From a virus: a stretch of 22,423 nucleotides of DNA. The position numbers and the translations under genes are program-made. How positions within the stretch are numbered: position 1 is the first letter of the stretch; each line of letters starts with the position of its first letter. Of the stretch, positions 5,352 through 13,379 are shown in pieces. The stretch lies in IMG/VR virus record IMGVR_UViG_3300037961_000238, positions 1-22,423 of that record. One strand, 5' to 3'. Under the pieces are notes generated by a model. That model was given only the letters and a program-made list of their open reading frames with translations, did not search any database and had not been told where the DNA came from.

Positions 5352-6245
5352 ATGGCGTTAGTCGTAAAGGATCGGGTAAAAGAAACCACCACTTCTACAG
5401 GGACGGGCGCGATCACATTGGCTGGAGCGCAGGCAAACTTTCGCACCTTCTCTTCTGTGCTGTCTAATGCAGATACAACGTATTACGCGATTATTGACAA
5501 CACAAACCTTGACTTTGAAGTGGGTCTTGGCACTTATGCTAGTAGCGGCAATACGATAACCCGGACCACGGTGTTGTCGAGTTCTAATAGCAATAGTGCA
5601 GTCAACTTTTCCGCAGGTACCAAGGATGTAATCTTGACGTATCCTGCTGACAAGGCAGTGTATGAAGAGTCTGATGGCTCCGTTTTGATTGAAAATCTTG
5701 AGCTTAATGCGAATGCAATTAAGTCCACGGATACTAACGGCAACATCCAGCTTTTCCCCAACGGCACCGGATTTACTGAGCTATACGGCAACACCAATGC
5801 TGGAGCGGTTAGATTTAACTGCGAAAGCAACTCTCACGGGGTAACTTTAAAGGGGCCACCTCACTCTGCCGGTGCCACTTATACCCTAGAGCTACCTGAC
5901 GCAACGGGAAGCGCAAGACAGATTCTTAACACTAACGGCAGTGGTAAGCTGGCCTTTACAAACTCCCTGCCTGATCCACTGCTTAAAAGCGCCAACTACA
6001 CCGCTGTAGCAGGTGATTTTGTGGTGGCGACAGCGGGTAGCATTACAATTACGCTCCCCGCCTCACCCAGCGCAGGAAACGCAGTTACCATCAAAGACGG
6101 TACTGGAGCCGCCGCCACGACGACATTTACTGTCGCCAGAAATGGATCAAACATTGCGTCGAGTGCTAGTGATCTGACGTTCGACAAGAACTTTGCAGAA
6201 ATCACCATGACGTACATTAACAGCACCATTGGGTGGAGCGTGTAA
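5352..6245 (+). CDS. Tail fibre / attachment-domain protein
   Basis: This 297-residue protein begins with a recurrent marine-phage fibre attachment domain: VKDRVKETTTSTGTGAITLA, then FRTFSSVL and TTYYAIIDNT, then an AGTKDVILTYPADKAVY block near 88-104. The middle (residues 110-200) holds repeats of the type found in trimeric fibre shafts, including LELNANAIKSTDTNGNIQ and VTLKGP. The last 90 residues form a separate strand-rich domain ending TYINSTIGWSV. It likely anchors or forms a fibre. It stops directly before the GTG start of the first propeller-like protein, so it may be its structural partner. Confidence 0.65.
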   Translation: MALVVKDRVKETTTSTGTGAITLAGAQANFRTFSSVLSNADTTYYAIIDNTNLDFEVGLGTYASSGNTITRTTVLSSSNSNSAVNFSAGTKDVILTYPADKAVYEESDGSVLIENLELNANAIKSTDTNGNIQLFPNGTGFTELYGNTNAGAVRFNCESNSHGVTLKGPPHSAGATYTLELPDATGSARQILNTNGSGKLAFTNSLPDPLLKSANYTAVAGDFVVATAGSITITLPASPSAGNAVTIKDGTGAAATTTFTVARNGSNIASSASDLTFDKNFAEITMTYINSTIGWSV

Positions 6246-7709
6246 GTGAGCAACCTCTCGGAGCTATTACCGGCTGGTGGCGGGCAAAATAACTTTACCT
6301 TTACTGCGTCTGGCGCTGTATCCAATGGCGACGCAGTTGTATTGAACTCTGACGGCACGGTTACATCCGTTGGAAATGTTGCCGCCGCCATAGGTTCTAT
6401 TGTGGAAATATCCACGCAGACTAACATCAACGCAAGAACCACTAGCTCCGCATATGACAGCACCAACAACAAAGTTGTAATTGCCTACCAAGGCTCATCT
6501 AATTATGGCTACGCTGTGGTCGGGACGATCAGCGGCTCCACGGTTAGTTACGGAACGCCTGTTGCGTGGACATCTACCAGTGTAGAAAGACCGTGTATTG
6601 CGTTTGGCAATGGCAAGGTTGTTGTTTTCTACAAGGATCAAACGGGAGGCACCAAGGCTCGTGTGGGGACTGTTAGTGGCACCAGTATTAGCTTTGGAAA
6701 TGCTGAGACTGTCGACAGTAATGCCACCGCAGGAAACAACTCCATTGCCTATCACGCCGCAGAGGATAAATTCGTGGTGGCCCTGCAAGACAATGGAAGT
6801 AGCAGTTACGGAAAAGCGTCCGTAGGGACTGTCAGCGGAACCACTATTTCATTTGGCTCACAGACCACCTTTGAGTCAGCCTACGTTCTGTTAGAAACCG
6901 GCTCTGTTGTGTACGACAGTACAAATGAAAAAATAGTTATTATCTACACAGACAGCGCAGACAATAACCGTGGCACGGCTGTTGTTGGAACTGTCAGCGG
7001 AACGTCTATTTCTTTTGGCTCTGTCGCAAAGTTTGGAAACGCCAGCTACGGGAGTTTTAATTTATTCGCGACATTTGATGCGTCTGCTGGAAAAATCGTT
7101 GTCGCCGGTAGAGCGGGTCAAAACAGCTATGCGGCTTATGCTGTCGGTACAGTGTCTGGCACTAGCATCTCGTTTGGGACAGAAACGGTTTTTTTGTCAG
7201 AAAGTATTGCAAACAGATATACGCCAATAGAGTACATGGCTTCCGCCAAAAAAGTCGTAATTTCTACATCTTCGTCCTCCAGTAGCGGTTTGTTGCATCC
7301 CGGCACAGTGTCGGGAACGTCTATTAGTTTTGATAGCACAACGGCTTCTGGAGCAGACGCGGATTACACGGTGGCCGCTTTAAGTGATGACACAGCCGCC
7401 AGAAAAATGCATGTCACGTTTTCAGACCCAAACAATAGTCAGCGCCTGTCAGGCAGGGCGTTTTCACCAATCCAGACAAACTTGACATCAACGTCATTTA
7501 TTGGGCTTGCCGCACAAGCGATATCAGACTCGGCTACTGGGACAGTCAACACGGTGGGCTCGCTCAACGAGTCTCAGTCTGGGCTGACCATCGGCTCTGA
7601 TTATTATGTACAGGAAGACGGGACTATTTCTACAACGTCTACGTCGCCAGCAGTAAAAATAGGTCAGGCTATTAAAGCCACAACTATTAACATGAAGAAC
7701 CGATCATGA
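6246..7709 (+). CDS. Seven-repeat propeller-like fibre protein, copy 1
   Basis: This 487-residue protein is probably a host-binding virion component. Residues 1-45 form a head with LSELLPAGGGQ, FTASGAVSNGD and LNSDGTV. Seven repeats of 48-54 residues follow, each marked by a GTVSGTSISFG-like strand starting near 93, 141, 194, 248, 301, 353 and 403 and preceded by a strand of the type NNKVVIAYQ. That count fits a seven-bladed beta propeller. Residues 418-487 form an end domain with FIGLAAQAISDSATG and GLTIGSDYYVQEDGT. The start is GTG, immediately after the upstream TAA, with GGTGGAG at 6232-6238. Two paralogs follow. No enzyme motif was seen. Confidence 0.72.
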   Translation: MSNLSELLPAGGGQNNFTFTASGAVSNGDAVVLNSDGTVTSVGNVAAAIGSIVEISTQTNINARTTSSAYDSTNNKVVIAYQGSSNYGYAVVGTISGSTVSYGTPVAWTSTSVERPCIAFGNGKVVVFYKDQTGGTKARVGTVSGTSISFGNAETVDSNATAGNNSIAYHAAEDKFVVALQDNGSSSYGKASVGTVSGTTISFGSQTTFESAYVLLETGSVVYDSTNEKIVIIYTDSADNNRGTAVVGTVSGTSISFGSVAKFGNASYGSFNLFATFDASAGKIVVAGRAGQNSYAAYAVGTVSGTSISFGTETVFLSESIANRYTPIEYMASAKKVVISTSSSSSSGLLHPGTVSGTSISFDSTTASGADADYTVAALSDDTAARKMHVTFSDPNNSQRLSGRAFSPIQTNLTSTSFIGLAAQAISDSATGTVNTVGSLNESQSGLTIGSDYYVQEDGTISTTSTSPAVKIGQAIKATTINMKNRS

Positions 7710-9160
7710 GCAGTCTGAGCGATTTATTTCCCGCTGGCGCTGGTAAAGAGGTTAGCTTTACGGCGTCAGGCACTATAGCGTCTGGAAAGACGATAATTTT
7801 AAACGCCAACGGCACCGTTACCGCAGTGTCTGGACAAAATTTTGCATCTGGTTCTGAAGCGGTATTTGACGGTGACGATCCACCCTATGATGGGGTTTCT
7901 GTTTTTGACTCCACTAGCAACAAGGTTGTCATTGTTTATCGTGACGGCAATGATGGTTGGGCTGTTGTCGGCACTGTAAGCGGCTCAAGCATTTCATTCG
8001 GAACGCCTGTCGCGTGGCATAGCACTTTTTATTCGGCTACTGAATTAGCAGTAGCTTACGATAGCAACGCAGACAGGGTTGTCATCGCATACAAAGAGAA
8101 TTATGCATCGGATTACGGTTACGCAATAGTTGGAACCGTGTCAGGAACATCAATTAGTTTTGGCACAAAAGTAGTATATAACTCAGCCACGTCAAGATTT
8201 CCCGTTTTGGTTTTCGACAGCGACAATAACAAGGTTGTTGTTTACTACAACGGAGTGGTCGCAAAAGTGGGAACCGTCAGCGGTACGTCAATCAGCTTTG
8301 GGTCAGCGGTGGATATATCCGGTGGGTCAGGTGGAGAGGCAGTAAATGCAGTATTTGACACCAACGCGAATAAGCACGTTGCTACATTCCGAAATTATGC
8401 CGGTGGCGGAACTACTGCCGATTCAGCAGTCGGAACGGTTTCAGGAACGTCAATTTCTTTCGGGTCTAGTTCCCAGTTTGCTAGCGCCGCAGGTTCTTCG
8501 CTCGGCAGGCCGATGGCTTTTGACAGCACAAATAATAAGGTTGTCGTTTTTTTCAACGATTCAAATAACTCCAACACGCTTACCGCAGTGGTCGGCACAG
8601 TTTCCGGCACGTCAGTATCTTATGGAACCCCCGTCGCAACATCAAAGAGTGAGTTAGGGAGTCAAGACCTTCGCCCCGGCCAAGCAACATTTGACAGCAA
8701 TGCGGGGGTGGTTGCGTTGGTCTTTAGCTCAAGCAACGAAACATTTCTTCTTGTCGGGAAGGTAAGCGGGACAACGATAACTCTCGATCCACTTATAACG
8801 CTGAATGATGGCGGCAGAGCAGATTATCCAAACATGACCTACGACTCAAATGCCCAGAAGGTGGTAGTGTCATACGCAGACAACCCAGCCGGGAATGACG
8901 GAACCAGCGTGGTGATTACTGTACCCACCTCAAATGTTACAGCCAGTAACTTTTTGGGGATATCGGGAGGCGCTATATCCGATGGTTCTAGCGGCTCAAT
9001 AACGATAAAAGGGGGGGTTTCGTCTAATGTTTCAGGCTTGACCGCCAACTCGGTTTATTACGTTGCAAAAGACGGAACCTTAACCACAACGTCATCGAGT
9101 AATGTTTTGGTGGGTCGAGCGATTTCATCAACCAGTATTGATCTGGACTACAGCACATGA
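7706..9160 (+). CDS. Seven-repeat propeller-like fibre protein, copy 2
   Basis: This 484-residue protein is a paralog of the preceding gene, with the same head (LSDLFPAGAGKEVSFTASG) and the same end domain (FLGISGGAISDGSSG, then GLTANSVYYVAKDGTL). The marker strand VGTVSGTSISFG recurs near residues 89, 143, 189, 243, 297, 351 and 404, again seven times. Loops between repeats (for example GDDPPYDGVS, or AGGGTTADS) differ from copy 1, which is where binding differences would lie. It starts on an ATGA overlap with copy 1 and ends with another, so the three copies are probably made together. The receptor or enzyme role is unknown. Confidence 0.72.
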   Translation: MSSLSDLFPAGAGKEVSFTASGTIASGKTIILNANGTVTAVSGQNFASGSEAVFDGDDPPYDGVSVFDSTSNKVVIVYRDGNDGWAVVGTVSGSSISFGTPVAWHSTFYSATELAVAYDSNADRVVIAYKENYASDYGYAIVGTVSGTSISFGTKVVYNSATSRFPVLVFDSDNNKVVVYYNGVVAKVGTVSGTSISFGSAVDISGGSGGEAVNAVFDTNANKHVATFRNYAGGGTTADSAVGTVSGTSISFGSSSQFASAAGSSLGRPMAFDSTNNKVVVFFNDSNNSNTLTAVVGTVSGTSVSYGTPVATSKSELGSQDLRPGQATFDSNAGVVALVFSSSNETFLLVGKVSGTTITLDPLITLNDGGRADYPNMTYDSNAQKVVVSYADNPAGNDGTSVVITVPTSNVTASNFLGISGGAISDGSSGSITIKGGVSSNVSGLTANSVYYVAKDGTLTTTSSSNVLVGRAISSTSIDLDYST

Positions 9161-10620
9161 CCAATTTATCTGACTTGTTACCAGCGGGTGCGTCGGGGAA
9201 AAAAGTAGAGGTTACCGCGTCTGGCGCTATATCGAATGGCGACACCGTCATCCTGAACACCAATGGTACCGTTAGTGTTGTGGCGGCAATATCAGAATCT
9301 AAAGGCAGTGCGGCCACTTTTGAATCGGCCCATGTCAGGTACTTTGACTCGGTACATGAGCCTGTTGCAGACAAAATAGTTATCTCATACGCCGATGCCG
9401 GTAACGGATATTACCTAACTGTTGTTGTGGGGGACGTGTCGGGGTCTTCGATCACCTTTGGAACACCTGTTGTCTGTTACAGCTACAGCACCTCACACAC
9501 CTCGATTGCGTTTAATTCTAACAACAGCACTATCGGGGTCGCTTTCCAAGCGAATACATGGGGTAGACATGCTATTGGTAGCGTAAGCGGAACGGCGTTT
9601 ACGCTTGGCGGAACGGGTGATTTTTACGGGGCTACTGCCGGAGAGTGCTCTTTAGCCTATAACGCGGCGGCAAATCGGTGGCTGGTTATGCTTGAGGCGG
9701 TTTCCAACTCTAATTATCCGTATTATTACTCAGGAACCGGATCGGCTACGGGCATAAGTTGGAACGGGGCAAACCTGATCAAGTCTGCCGTAGGATATTG
9801 GCCTAATGTTGTCTATGACTCAAACGCAGAAAGAATGGTTTTTATTTGGCGTGACTATGGAAACAGCAATTACGGAACCGCAGTGGTTGGGGAAATAAAT
9901 TCATCCAAGACAGGATATGATCTTGGCACAGCAGTGGTGTTTGAGAGCGGAATAACCGACTACCCAGACGCATGTTTTGATTCAGACAACAATCTGATTG
10001 TCATAGGGTACAGAGACACCAGTGATTCTAATGCTGGAAAAGTTATAGCTGGCGAGGTATCTGGGTCAGGGACAGACTCAACGATTGAATTTGGAGACGC
10101 TGTGGCGATAGGCATCCAGTCTGGTCAGTACAGTCTTACCTATGACGAAGTGAACAAGAAAGTAGTGATTGGCGTGAGGCACGGCACAAATGGGCGTCCT
10201 TATGTGTACAACGCGACTGTTTCTTCAGACAAAAGCATTTCGCTTGATTCTGGATTTGAGATAAGCACAAACAGCACTAACTCAGGTAACTATAGCTCAA
10301 CACTTGCAACATACGACCCTGATCAAGCAAAAGTCGCGGTTTTACATACAAATGGCAGTACTTCTGGGCAAGGCACTGTATATCAGCCGCCCTCAAGTAA
10401 TGCGCTACCTGCACCCAAGTTTGTGGGAGTTGCCGAGGCGGCTATATCGGACACTGCAACAGGCGAGGTTACGCTGGTTGGCGGCATCTCTGAAAAATTT
10501 AGCGGGCTGACAATAGGGTCAACGTATTACTTGCAGTCTGATGGCTCGGCTTCTACGACAACGTCTCCCATTGTGCTAGGCGTGGCAATATCAGCAACAT
10601 CTATTTTGTTAAACGGATAA
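9157..10620 (+). CDS. Seven-repeat propeller-like fibre protein, copy 3 (diverged)
   Basis: This 487-residue protein is the most diverged of the three paralogs. The head (LSDLLPAGASGKKVEVTASG) and end domain (FVGVAEAAISDTATG, then GLTIGSTYYLQSDGS) are kept, but the marker strand has drifted to VGDVSGSSITFG, IGSVSGTAFTLG, SGTGSATGISW, VGEINSSKTGY, AGEVSGSGTDS, NATVSSDKSIS and QGTVYQPPS, starting near 92, 141, 193, 245, 299, 352 and 405. The sevenfold count is retained. It contains more Tyr, Trp and Cys than copies 1 and 2. The pattern suggests a fixed scaffold with a separately evolving binding face. Confidence 0.7.
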   Translation: MTNLSDLLPAGASGKKVEVTASGAISNGDTVILNTNGTVSVVAAISESKGSAATFESAHVRYFDSVHEPVADKIVISYADAGNGYYLTVVVGDVSGSSITFGTPVVCYSYSTSHTSIAFNSNNSTIGVAFQANTWGRHAIGSVSGTAFTLGGTGDFYGATAGECSLAYNAAANRWLVMLEAVSNSNYPYYYSGTGSATGISWNGANLIKSAVGYWPNVVYDSNAERMVFIWRDYGNSNYGTAVVGEINSSKTGYDLGTAVVFESGITDYPDACFDSDNNLIVIGYRDTSDSNAGKVIAGEVSGSGTDSTIEFGDAVAIGIQSGQYSLTYDEVNKKVVIGVRHGTNGRPYVYNATVSSDKSISLDSGFEISTNSTNSGNYSSTLATYDPDQAKVAVLHTNGSTSGQGTVYQPPSSNALPAPKFVGVAEAAISDTATGEVTLVGGISEKFSGLTIGSTYYLQSDGSASTTTSPIVLGVAISATSILLNG

Positions 10621-10626
10621 GGGAAA

Positions 10627-10893
10627 ATGAAGACAATTACCGAAAACTCAACGAAGCTGTCTAAGTATCTTTTTGAGGACAGCAAAGCTGTGGCTATGGG
10701 CTCCGACAAAATTACAGTTGGAGACCCCTCGGCTCCCGATTTTTATATTGGCGACCTTAATTCTGGAAACGCGACCTTGACTGAGAACGTAACAGATGCA
10801 CCAGAAAATTGGTCGGGAAACCGCTATACATACGACCCCAGTGCCGACCCCAAGTGGGTTCAAGACCCAAACTGGGTAGACCCTAGCGCCTAA
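10627..10893 (+). CDS. Small conserved protein ending in DPNW motif
   Basis: This 88-residue acidic protein begins MKTITENSTKLSKYLFEDSK, followed by GSDKITVGDPSAPDFYIGDL and a NATLTENVTDAPENW block. It ends with two related pieces, DPKWVQ and DPNWVDP. I recall relatives in the fibre regions of many marine phages, without a known role. There is no membrane segment. AAGGG at 10619-10623 overlaps the stop of the fibre gene upstream and fits the ATG at 10627. The QDPNW piece recurs at the end of the protein at 11619. It may be a fibre accessory or assembly protein, inferred from position. Confidence 0.6.
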   Translation: MKTITENSTKLSKYLFEDSKAVAMGSDKITVGDPSAPDFYIGDLNSGNATLTENVTDAPENWSGNRYTYDPSADPKWVQDPNWVDPSA

Positions 10894-11618: not shown

Positions 11619-12404
11619 ATGTTCGGCGCTGGTTCTTTTTCAGCCTTTACCTTTGGCGACGAAGGTCTTCCGGGTCCGGTTAGCGTAACTGGCGTATCCG
11701 CTACCGGCGCTGTTGCCTCAGTTTCAGTCAACGGAGACGCAGACGCCGCAGTTACGGGACTAGAGGCCACGGCCTCAGTAGGCACCGCAATAGCACAATT
11801 CCCAGTTGGTGTGTCGGTGACTGGGGTGTCAGGCACAGGGGCGGTTGGCTCGGCGGCAGGCTCCATTCCTGTCTCGGTTGCCGTGACCGGCCTGTCAGCA
11901 ACAATGCCCATGATCGCATCAAGGTCACAGGGATCGCAGTTTGGCGGGATGACGTTTGCTGAAGACCCCTTCTCTTCCCTTGCAGACGGTCCAATTAACG
12001 TCATTATAAGAGAGGGCGCTGGCGCACCCGTAACCGGCCTTGAGGCCACGGGCGCTGTAGGCTCCGTTGTGGTGAACGGTGATGCAAGTGCCAGCGTTAC
12101 TGGTCTGGAAGGTACCGGCGGCGTTGGTTCCGTCGAAGTGGAGGGTGCAGGTCAGGTCGAGGTAACGGGTGTAGCGGGGGCGGGAGGCGTTGGCTCCGCA
12201 ACTATCACCGAAGGCACAGGCGTTGCTGTGGCGATTAGTTCCGCAGGCGCGGAGGGGCGTGTCGGCGTTGTCACCGCAATCGGTGATATTAGCGTTCTGG
12301 TTACAGGAGTTTCAGGAACAGGCGAAACGTCAGGCGCGTCTGTTGTTGCGTGGAATGAAATCATACCGAATCAAGACCCGAATTGGACAGAGATAGCGGC
12401 ATAA
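11619..12404 (+). CDS. Gly/Val/Ala-rich protein with 22-residue repeats
   Basis: This 261-residue protein is built almost wholly of repeats with the pattern VxVTGLxATGxVGSVxVxG. VTG recurs at residues 23, 45, 67 and 89, and again at 138, 160, 182 and 228, with a degenerate unit between the last two. The exact 22-residue period suggests a beta solenoid or fibrous shaft. Two similar Phe-rich pieces, FSAFTFGDE near 7 and FGGMTFAEDPFS near 108, precede each repeat block, so the gene may be an internal duplication. The C terminus has QDPNWTEI. It lies between membrane proteins and a tail fibre and is probably a virion fibre. Confidence 0.6.
   Translation: MFGAGSFSAFTFGDEGLPGPVSVTGVSATGAVASVSVNGDADAAVTGLEATASVGTAIAQFPVGVSVTGVSGTGAVGSAAGSIPVSVAVTGLSATMPMIASRSQGSQFGGMTFAEDPFSSLADGPINVIIREGAGAPVTGLEATGAVGSVVVNGDASASVTGLEGTGGVGSVEVEGAGQVEVTGVAGAGGVGSATITEGTGVAVAISSAGAEGRVGVVTAIGDISVLVTGVSGTGETSGASVVAWNEIIPNQDPNWTEIAA
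11679..12338 (+). repeat. 66-bp (22-residue) coding repeats in two blocks
   Basis: Four units at about 11679-11906 and five at about 12024-12338 encode the VTG-containing 22-residue repeat, separated by a Phe-rich, non-repetitive spacer. The units vary in sequence but keep the same length, with two one-residue exceptions near the end. Confidence 0.75.
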
Positions 12405-12407
12405 GAC

Positions 12408-13379
12408 ATGACTAGCACATATACGACCAACTTAGGCATAGAGAAAATTGCAACAGGCGATCAGTCTGGTACATGGGGCGACACAACCAACACCAACTTC
12501 GACATTTTGGATCAGGCTGTCAACGGAATACTGTCACTGACCCTGTCTTCTGCCGGTAGTTCTGGCTCGCCAACAGACATCCCTGTTACGGACGGCGCTG
12601 TATCTAACGGTAGAAACAAGTTTATTGAGTTTACGGATGGCGGCGATCTTGGCGGCACAGCGTATGTCAGGCTAACTCCAAATGATGCAGAAAAGATTGT
12701 ATTTGTTCGTAACAGCCTGTCGTCAAGCCGGTCAGTAATCCTCTTTCAAGGCACATATAGCGCCTCAAATGATTTTGAGCTTGCCAACGGCAAGGATGCA
12801 GTGCTGAAGTTTAGCGGTTCTGGTTCAGGCGCTACGGTCACGCAGGTTTTTGTTGACTTGTTAGCAACAACGGTGACCGCCAACCTGACAGGTAACGTGA
12901 CCGGAAATGTCACGGGCGCAGTAACGGGTAACGTCACCGGCAATGTGACGGGAAACGTAACGGGAAACGTGACGGGCGACCTGACGGGAAACGTGACGGG
13001 GAACGTGACCTCGACGGGGTCGTCCTCATTTTCTTCGATTGATGTCAACGGCGGCGCTGTAGACGGCACCCCGATTGGAGCCAACTCTGCCAGTACGGGT
13101 GCGTTTACAACACTCAGCACTACAGGTACAGCAACACTGCCCACTGTAGACATCAACGCCGGAAGCATCGACGGCACAAATATAGGCGCGTCTACCCCCG
13201 GCGCAGGCACATTCAACGCCCTAGCCACCACTGGTGACAACATCAGGATCGACACTGCCCAGACGCCAGCTAGCTCTTCGGCATCAGGCACCAAGGGCGA
13301 GTTCGCTTATGACACAGACTACATATATGTGTGTGTCGCAACTAACACATGGAAAAGGGTTGCACTGTCCACATTCTAA
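12408..13379 (+). CDS. Tail fibre protein with NVTG repeats
   Basis: This 323-residue protein starts with a common phage fibre head, TYTTNLGIEKIATGDQSGTW followed by TNTNFDILDQAVNG. A beta domain extends to residue 155, and an array of 11 tetrapeptides of the type NVTG spans 159-202. Two copies of a segment of about 33 residues follow (IDVNGGAVDGTPIGANSA and VDINAGSIDGTNIGASTP), as in trimeric fibre shafts. The end domain has KGEFAYDTDYIYVCVATNTW, a piece widespread at the end of phage fibres. It lies just before the lysis module and probably contributes to host attachment. Confidence 0.78.
   Translation: MTSTYTTNLGIEKIATGDQSGTWGDTTNTNFDILDQAVNGILSLTLSSAGSSGSPTDIPVTDGAVSNGRNKFIEFTDGGDLGGTAYVRLTPNDAEKIVFVRNSLSSSRSVILFQGTYSASNDFELANGKDAVLKFSGSGSGATVTQVFVDLLATTVTANLTGNVTGNVTGAVTGNVTGNVTGNVTGNVTGDLTGNVTGNVTSTGSSSFSSIDVNGGAVDGTPIGANSASTGAFTTLSTTGTATLPTVDINAGSIDGTNIGASTPGAGTFNALATTGDNIRIDTAQTPASSSASGTKGEFAYDTDYIYVCVATNTWKRVALSTF
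12882..13013 (+). repeat. 12-bp tandem array encoding NVTG-type units
   Basis: Eleven consecutive 12-bp units of the type AACGTGACGGGA encode NLTG, NVTG, AVTG or DLTG, and the last unit ends in Ser. Several neighbours differ by only one or two bases. Gain or loss of units would keep the reading frame and change fibre length. Confidence 0.9.

Follow-up and report, generated by a model that had tools for sequence, protein, structure and literature searches.

A fixed set of three propeller-bearing genes in marine phages encodes a candidate tripartite fibre tip

In a fragment of a marine podovirus-like phage, we found three consecutive genes whose products share one architecture: a short N-terminal motif followed by a base domain that is split by a seven-bladed propeller. 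The same linked three-gene set recurs, in fixed order, in many marine viruses. We consider it probable that the three proteins, which we call slots A, B and C, make up the distal receptor-binding tip of the fibre encoded by the gene upstream, likely as an A-B-C heterotrimer that carries its propellers as exchangeable cargo.

Results

Three overlapping genes behind a tail-fibre gene

The window analysed here is a stretch of 22,423 nt (IMG/VR record IMGVR_UViG_3300037961_000238, positions 1 to 22,423). Its capsid protein is 54-71% identical to those of pelagiphages HTVC023P and HTVC027P, Synechococcus phage MinM2 and Roseobacter phage CRP-901, and we found no DNA-level relatives of the window among phage isolates. 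The three genes lie on the plus strand at 6246-7709 (slot A, 487 aa, with a GTG start), 7706-9160 (slot B, 484 aa) and 9157-10620 (slot C, 487 aa), each overlapping its neighbor by 4 nt. Relative to the first protein, the second is 39% and the third 37% identical. Slots A and B were assigned from the clades in which their proteins fall, and slot C from its type, which is the third in three-gene sets. In bacterial genomes, only two distant matches appeared, both on MAG contigs, one of which has the fibre-tip cassette. Scans for promoters and terminators gave no more matches than expected by chance.

Two other genes farther along the window deserve mention. The protein encoded at 11619-12404 is built of repeated VTGVxGTGAVGSV units, and many related loci have similar repeat proteins encoded upstream of their fibre. 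The gene at 12408-13379 is a second fibre-like gene that contains GNVT tetrapeptide repeats and shares PHROG 31104 with the tail-fibre gene at 5352-6245.

Each protein carries a predicted seven-bladed propeller

The first-pass annotation had counted seven repeats in each gene, and a profile of a single blade indeed finds seven copies in all three proteins, with a spacing of 47-54 residues in the first. It had also remarked that the third copy keeps this number while most of its VSGTSISFG words are gone; consistent with this, the blade scores in gene 3 fall to 11-44 bits. Searching the PDB by sequence returned nothing useful, and a cyclophilin-like Pfam match on gene 1 (29.2 bits, above the cut-off) was judged to be a repeat artefact because it is confined to 36 residues within a single blade and none of the stretches reaches the cut-off alone.

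An AlphaFold2 model of gene 2, made with 103 homologues, is a closed seven-bladed propeller (mean pLDDT 91.5, pTM 0.87). Fold searches with residues 43-408 of this model returned seven-bladed propellers as its closest solved neighbors, including E. coli YncE (VIA Z 30.9, over 46-406). The seven-bladed lectins PLL, PHL and BP39L also superimpose well (Z 28-30, rmsd 2.5-3.0 over 301-317 residues), but with about 10% identity and other sequence repeats. The beta propeller guessed from the repeats is thus borne out by the model, whereas a solenoid or extended shaft is rejected. Nor is the number of blades a matter of chance, because exactly seven blade matches occur at the first insertion site in 135 of 154 homologues with a single propeller or an empty second site, and double-propeller homologues give 7+7 matches in 26 of 29 cases. 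Together, these predictions support a seven-bladed beta-propeller fold for the trio proteins.

A conserved fibre terminus precedes the trio

Directly upstream of the trio, on the same strand, is a tail-fibre gene (5352-6245) with PHROG tail-fibre matches over residues 210-297. Its last ~90 residues (about 5967-6242), ending TIGWSV, make up what we call the socket domain. We collected related loci on viral contigs in scans with the whole family, with the bare base and, independently, with the fibre C-terminal domain only. Wherever these loci reach far enough upstream, a gene with a terminal socket domain precedes the trio. The socket consensus at the fibre C-terminus is ..DLTFDKNFAEITMTYINxTIGWSV, and the fibre stops exactly with the domain. 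While this C-terminus is conserved, the N-termini of the fibres split into 13 BLAST clusters, and several of the fibres match PHROG tail-fibre families. Since the trio sits behind a separate tail-fibre gene, it is more likely to be the tip of a fibre than the fibre itself.

The proteins encoded behind the socket begin alike. Of 136 distinct proteins behind a socket-ended fibre, 127 have an M-S-N-L-S-D/E-L-L-like motif within their first 14 residues, compared to 2 of 3,408 other distinct ORFs, counts that describe an association and not a blind test because the pattern was composed after the sequences were known. The two exceptions among the other ORFs are the second and third genes of one tip array, on contig L167. 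Motif-like starts behind sockets also occur in isolates, namely MSNLSDFLGG in Roseobacter phage CRP-2 and MSSLRDLL in Synechococcus phage S-CAM1. From these sequence patterns, the N-terminal motif most likely docks on the socket domain of the fibre.

Some sockets are followed by other proteins. In the L167 array (L167:7271-9979), the same fibre socket is followed by three tandem genes for tip proteins of an unrelated family without propellers, the third cut by the contig end, and L180:4193-5281 is likewise a tip gene of such a family behind this socket; the N-terminal motif in both is the same or similar. By eye, genes downstream of the fibre at L169:5674-7429 and L176:6938-8797 resemble 2OG-Fe(II) oxygenases, and pelagiphage HTVC027P has an annotated enzyme of this type close to its tail genes.

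On the other side of the trio, a gene at 10627-10893 on the plus strand encodes an 88-aa protein that resembles the N-terminal half of gp48 of Lentibacter phage ICBM2 (33% identity, E 1e-14). This gp48 is annotated as a tail assembly chaperone, and its C-terminal half is PF16778 Phage_tail_APC. Judged by this resemblance, the small gene is probably an assembly chaperone. The context fits a tail-fibre tip, with a fibre directly upstream and a chaperone-related gene directly downstream.

The base is a single domain with three insertion sites

The first-pass annotation had described the repeats as lying between the same head and end domains in each protein. Both segments are present (head about 44 residues, end about 72), but they are not two domains: relatives join them directly, with no propeller in between, which identifies them as halves of one base domain of ~115 residues. 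Bare bases of 115-124 aa occur in slot A or B, as in L006 (slot A, 115 aa), L051 (slot B, 119 aa) and L060 (slot A, 121 aa).

We measured the lengths of inserts at three sites of the base in 262 distinct proteins. At site 1, 12 proteins have no insert and 248 have one of about 360-420 aa. At site 2, 205 have little or no insert, 4 have about 120 aa and 53 have 360-400 aa. At site 3, little or nothing is inserted in 245, and the remaining 17 have 260-280 aa. Such nearly all-or-none lengths are as expected if the base tolerates only whole, closed propellers. The ~270-aa inserts at site 3 have a different repeat of ~43 residues, and their length suggests six blades. One 857-aa slot C protein (L055) folds as two propellers at lower confidence (pLDDT 83.7, pTM 0.50), a level at which the arrangement of base and propellers is not resolved. 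In L068 (3114-4937) and its near copy L069, the site 2 insert is ~117 aa of another kind, cupredoxin-like by eye in L068.

The base also raises the possibility that the proteins decorate the capsid, with the base acting as a cement protein and the propellers displayed on the head, perhaps for loose attachment to the host or to particles. The PF09956 Phage_cement_2 model (cut-off 24) recognizes the propeller-free L006 base at 27.4 bits, with L060 at 23.3 and L051 not listed, and there is a weak match to PHROG head decoration. The window copies, however, score under the cut-off (gene 2 at 16.3 bits, gene 3 at 11.6, gene 1 not listed). These matches are suggestive of kinship to cement proteins (Phage_cement_2/DUF2190), from which nothing certain about location follows. 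Position argues for the tail instead: the upstream neighbor is fibre-like in related loci, the downstream neighbor is related to a tail assembly chaperone, and the usual place for decoration proteins behind the capsid gene is occupied by two other genes (1139-2069). We therefore regard a location on the head as quite improbable.

Three slots are kept in number and order

To the suggestion of looking for phages with different copy numbers, the related loci give an answer: there are one, two or three copies, mostly three and never more. We counted base genes in 67 distinct gapless cassettes with both anchors, of which the small gene is the downstream one: there are three in 58 cassettes, two in 6 and a single one in 3, and no cassette has four or more. 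The scan with the fibre domain, which made no use of propellers, found 21 threes, 3 twos and 3 ones, together with 13 loci without a visible base gene; some of these stop at the fibre because the contig ends, and others have a different tip. The cassette is also present in L025, whose capsid protein belongs to PHROG 267, compared to PHROG 371 in the window.

Judged by terminal motifs, the first gene is A in 45 of 45 cases, the second B in 44 of 46 and the third C in 36 of 36. In a tree of base domains, 4 changes are enough to account for the slot labels, compared to a mean of 70 after shuffling; inner branching is weak because the alignment is short (110 columns), and two divergent contigs, L022 and L039, fall outside the clean slot clades. 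An enlarged tree still clusters the slots strongly, if less cleanly (18 changes for six labels, versus 116). Base phylogeny thus shows the three slots to be orthologous, in the fixed order A-B-C, and the product of an old triplication, and the slot tree rejects recent tandem duplication or concerted evolution. At the joints between base genes, 191 of 202 distinct cases have an exact 4-nt overlap, an arrangement common in phage operons.

Several cassettes depart from this plan. Two-gene cassettes include L025:5769-8701, L044:3731-6741 and L088:946-4973; the second gene of L025 and of L088 starts like B but ends like C and is possibly a B/C fusion. In L065:1376-2910, L097:6350-7745 and L106:7001-8595, slot A is replaced by a base with a C-terminal glycine-rich extension, identified in L065 as Gly_rich_2 by Pfam, and a small gene of its own comes next inside the cassette, as if cargo and helper were exchanged jointly. 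Three cassettes beyond the 67 have such a small extra gene behind a glycine-rich slot A protein.

Of the arrangements that the first-pass annotation had offered for three parallel copies, the mixed fibre is judged best, refined here to slot-specific orthologues; the copies are not recent. One alternative is that A, B and C each form their own homotrimer on different copies of the fibre, so that one phage would have three receptor specificities simultaneously. The N-terminal motif is common to all three, the propellers within one phage are only 31-40% identical, the one-gene sets imply a working homomeric form, and separate homotrimers would give an identical gene order. Yet a trimer of empty bases would be a tip without a binder, and empty bases are nevertheless retained in order in several lineages. 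Additionally, the count stops at three and slot identity persists, with its order, over large divergence. These features favor a heterotrimer, as do the gene overlaps, which suggest coupled translation, and the tail of a virophage with an analogous gene layout, which is a 1:1:1 heterotrimer (PMC12724248). We consider separate homotrimers unlikely. The existence of two- and one-gene sets means that not every lineage requires three different subunits, and the one-gene sets are probably homomeric.

Tandem paralogues with variable binding modules would also suit receptor binders deployed singly, through phase variation or recombination, as with invertible fibre genes. All three genes, however, are intact, in the same orientation and translationally coupled, with slot-specific bases, and we noticed no inversion or switching system, although no dedicated search was made. 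Deployment one at a time is accordingly very improbable.

In the A-B-C heterotrimer that we favor, the N-terminus of each protein would dock on one of the three chain ends of a trimeric fibre, and the bases would join the proteins 1:1:1 into an ordered cap. Each propeller, grafted into a loop of its base, would be presented to the host surface as exchangeable, lectin-like cargo for sugars found there, and the small downstream gene product would assist assembly as a chaperone. We infer all four elements, namely the heterotrimer, docking, receptor binding and the role of the chaperone; a glycan would be the class of receptor, judging from the predicted fold only.

Propellers change faster than the base that holds them

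The first-pass annotation had proposed dN/dS by loop versus strand to find diversifying faces. A dN/dS comparison of propeller and base revealed no overall positive selection: between the window and its near relatives, omega is 0.14-0.25 for the propeller and 0.02-0.08 for the base, with the pairs that involve L006 near synonymous saturation. Strong positive selection on the propellers is therefore not seen, and their omega exceeds the base value by a factor of about two to eight. In L006 and L077, which have capsid proteins 96-98% identical, the bases are 76-87% identical and the propellers 32-65%, and slot A of L006 is without a propeller. Mean entropy in the alignment is about 1.2 bits for the base and about 2.2 for the propeller, and the most variable propeller loops number about one per blade, where the next blade joins. 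This sequence pattern fits binding modules that change on a conserved holder.

Discussion

Phage fibre tips are usually described as homotrimers, and propellers are already known in phage tails. The virophage tail work is a precedent for tripartite tips: Dishui Lake virophage 2 has three consecutive homologous tail genes with position-specific clades, whose products, as shown biochemically, assemble into a 1:1:1 heterotrimer binding Synechococcus LPS (PMC12724248). Slot tree and copy counts give the phage trio the same layout of consecutive homologous genes and position-specific clades. The virophage proteins, however, are 196-247 aa with a PF07484 collar domain and a T4 gp37-like tip (PMC12724248); they have no propeller or split base, and no fibre socket gene is described. 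PF07484 gave no match to the three window proteins among Pfam results with E up to 1, and the trio is therefore analogous to the virophage tails, not of the same family.

Other known systems share single features. The model of the Phage_cement_2/DUF2190 head proteins (PF09956) recognizes the base of a propeller-free relative, but in the trio the base occurs three times, is split by a propeller each time and lies behind a tail-fibre gene. Cultured marine relatives are gp49 of Lentibacter phage vB_LenP_ICBM2 and gp52 of Roseobacter phage CRP-2, which lie behind or near a fibre gene; unlike the window, these phages show one such gene and no A-B-C trio, and ICBM2 gp49 is without the N-terminal motif. 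Klebsiella phages have branched receptor-binding systems joined by short conserved peptides. As proposed here, the trio would share with them the modular docking of separate tip proteins, although theirs are depolymerase spikes and ours are propellers on a common heteromeric base. In the literature searched, which was incomplete and covered mostly by title and abstract, neither a split base with quantised propeller grafts, nor A-B-C slots in tailed phages, nor the motif/socket pair turned up.

A broader reading, which we see as evenly poised, is that the cassette is a widespread display platform of marine phages, in which a slot-specific, heterotrimeric A-B-C cap clips through one pair of motif and socket onto many unrelated fibres. 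Each of the three graft sites in its base could stay vacant or take up an entire propeller of seven or roughly six blades, and swapping this cargo would change host range on an unchanging cap. If true, uncultured marine phages would possess a natural modular adhesin kit, a conserved set of three distinct propeller subunits with empty place-holders and quantised grafts. Such a kit would supply testable rules for finding the host-range gene in these genomes, and the fibre socket and the motif would serve as a marker for annotating tip genes whatever their cargo.
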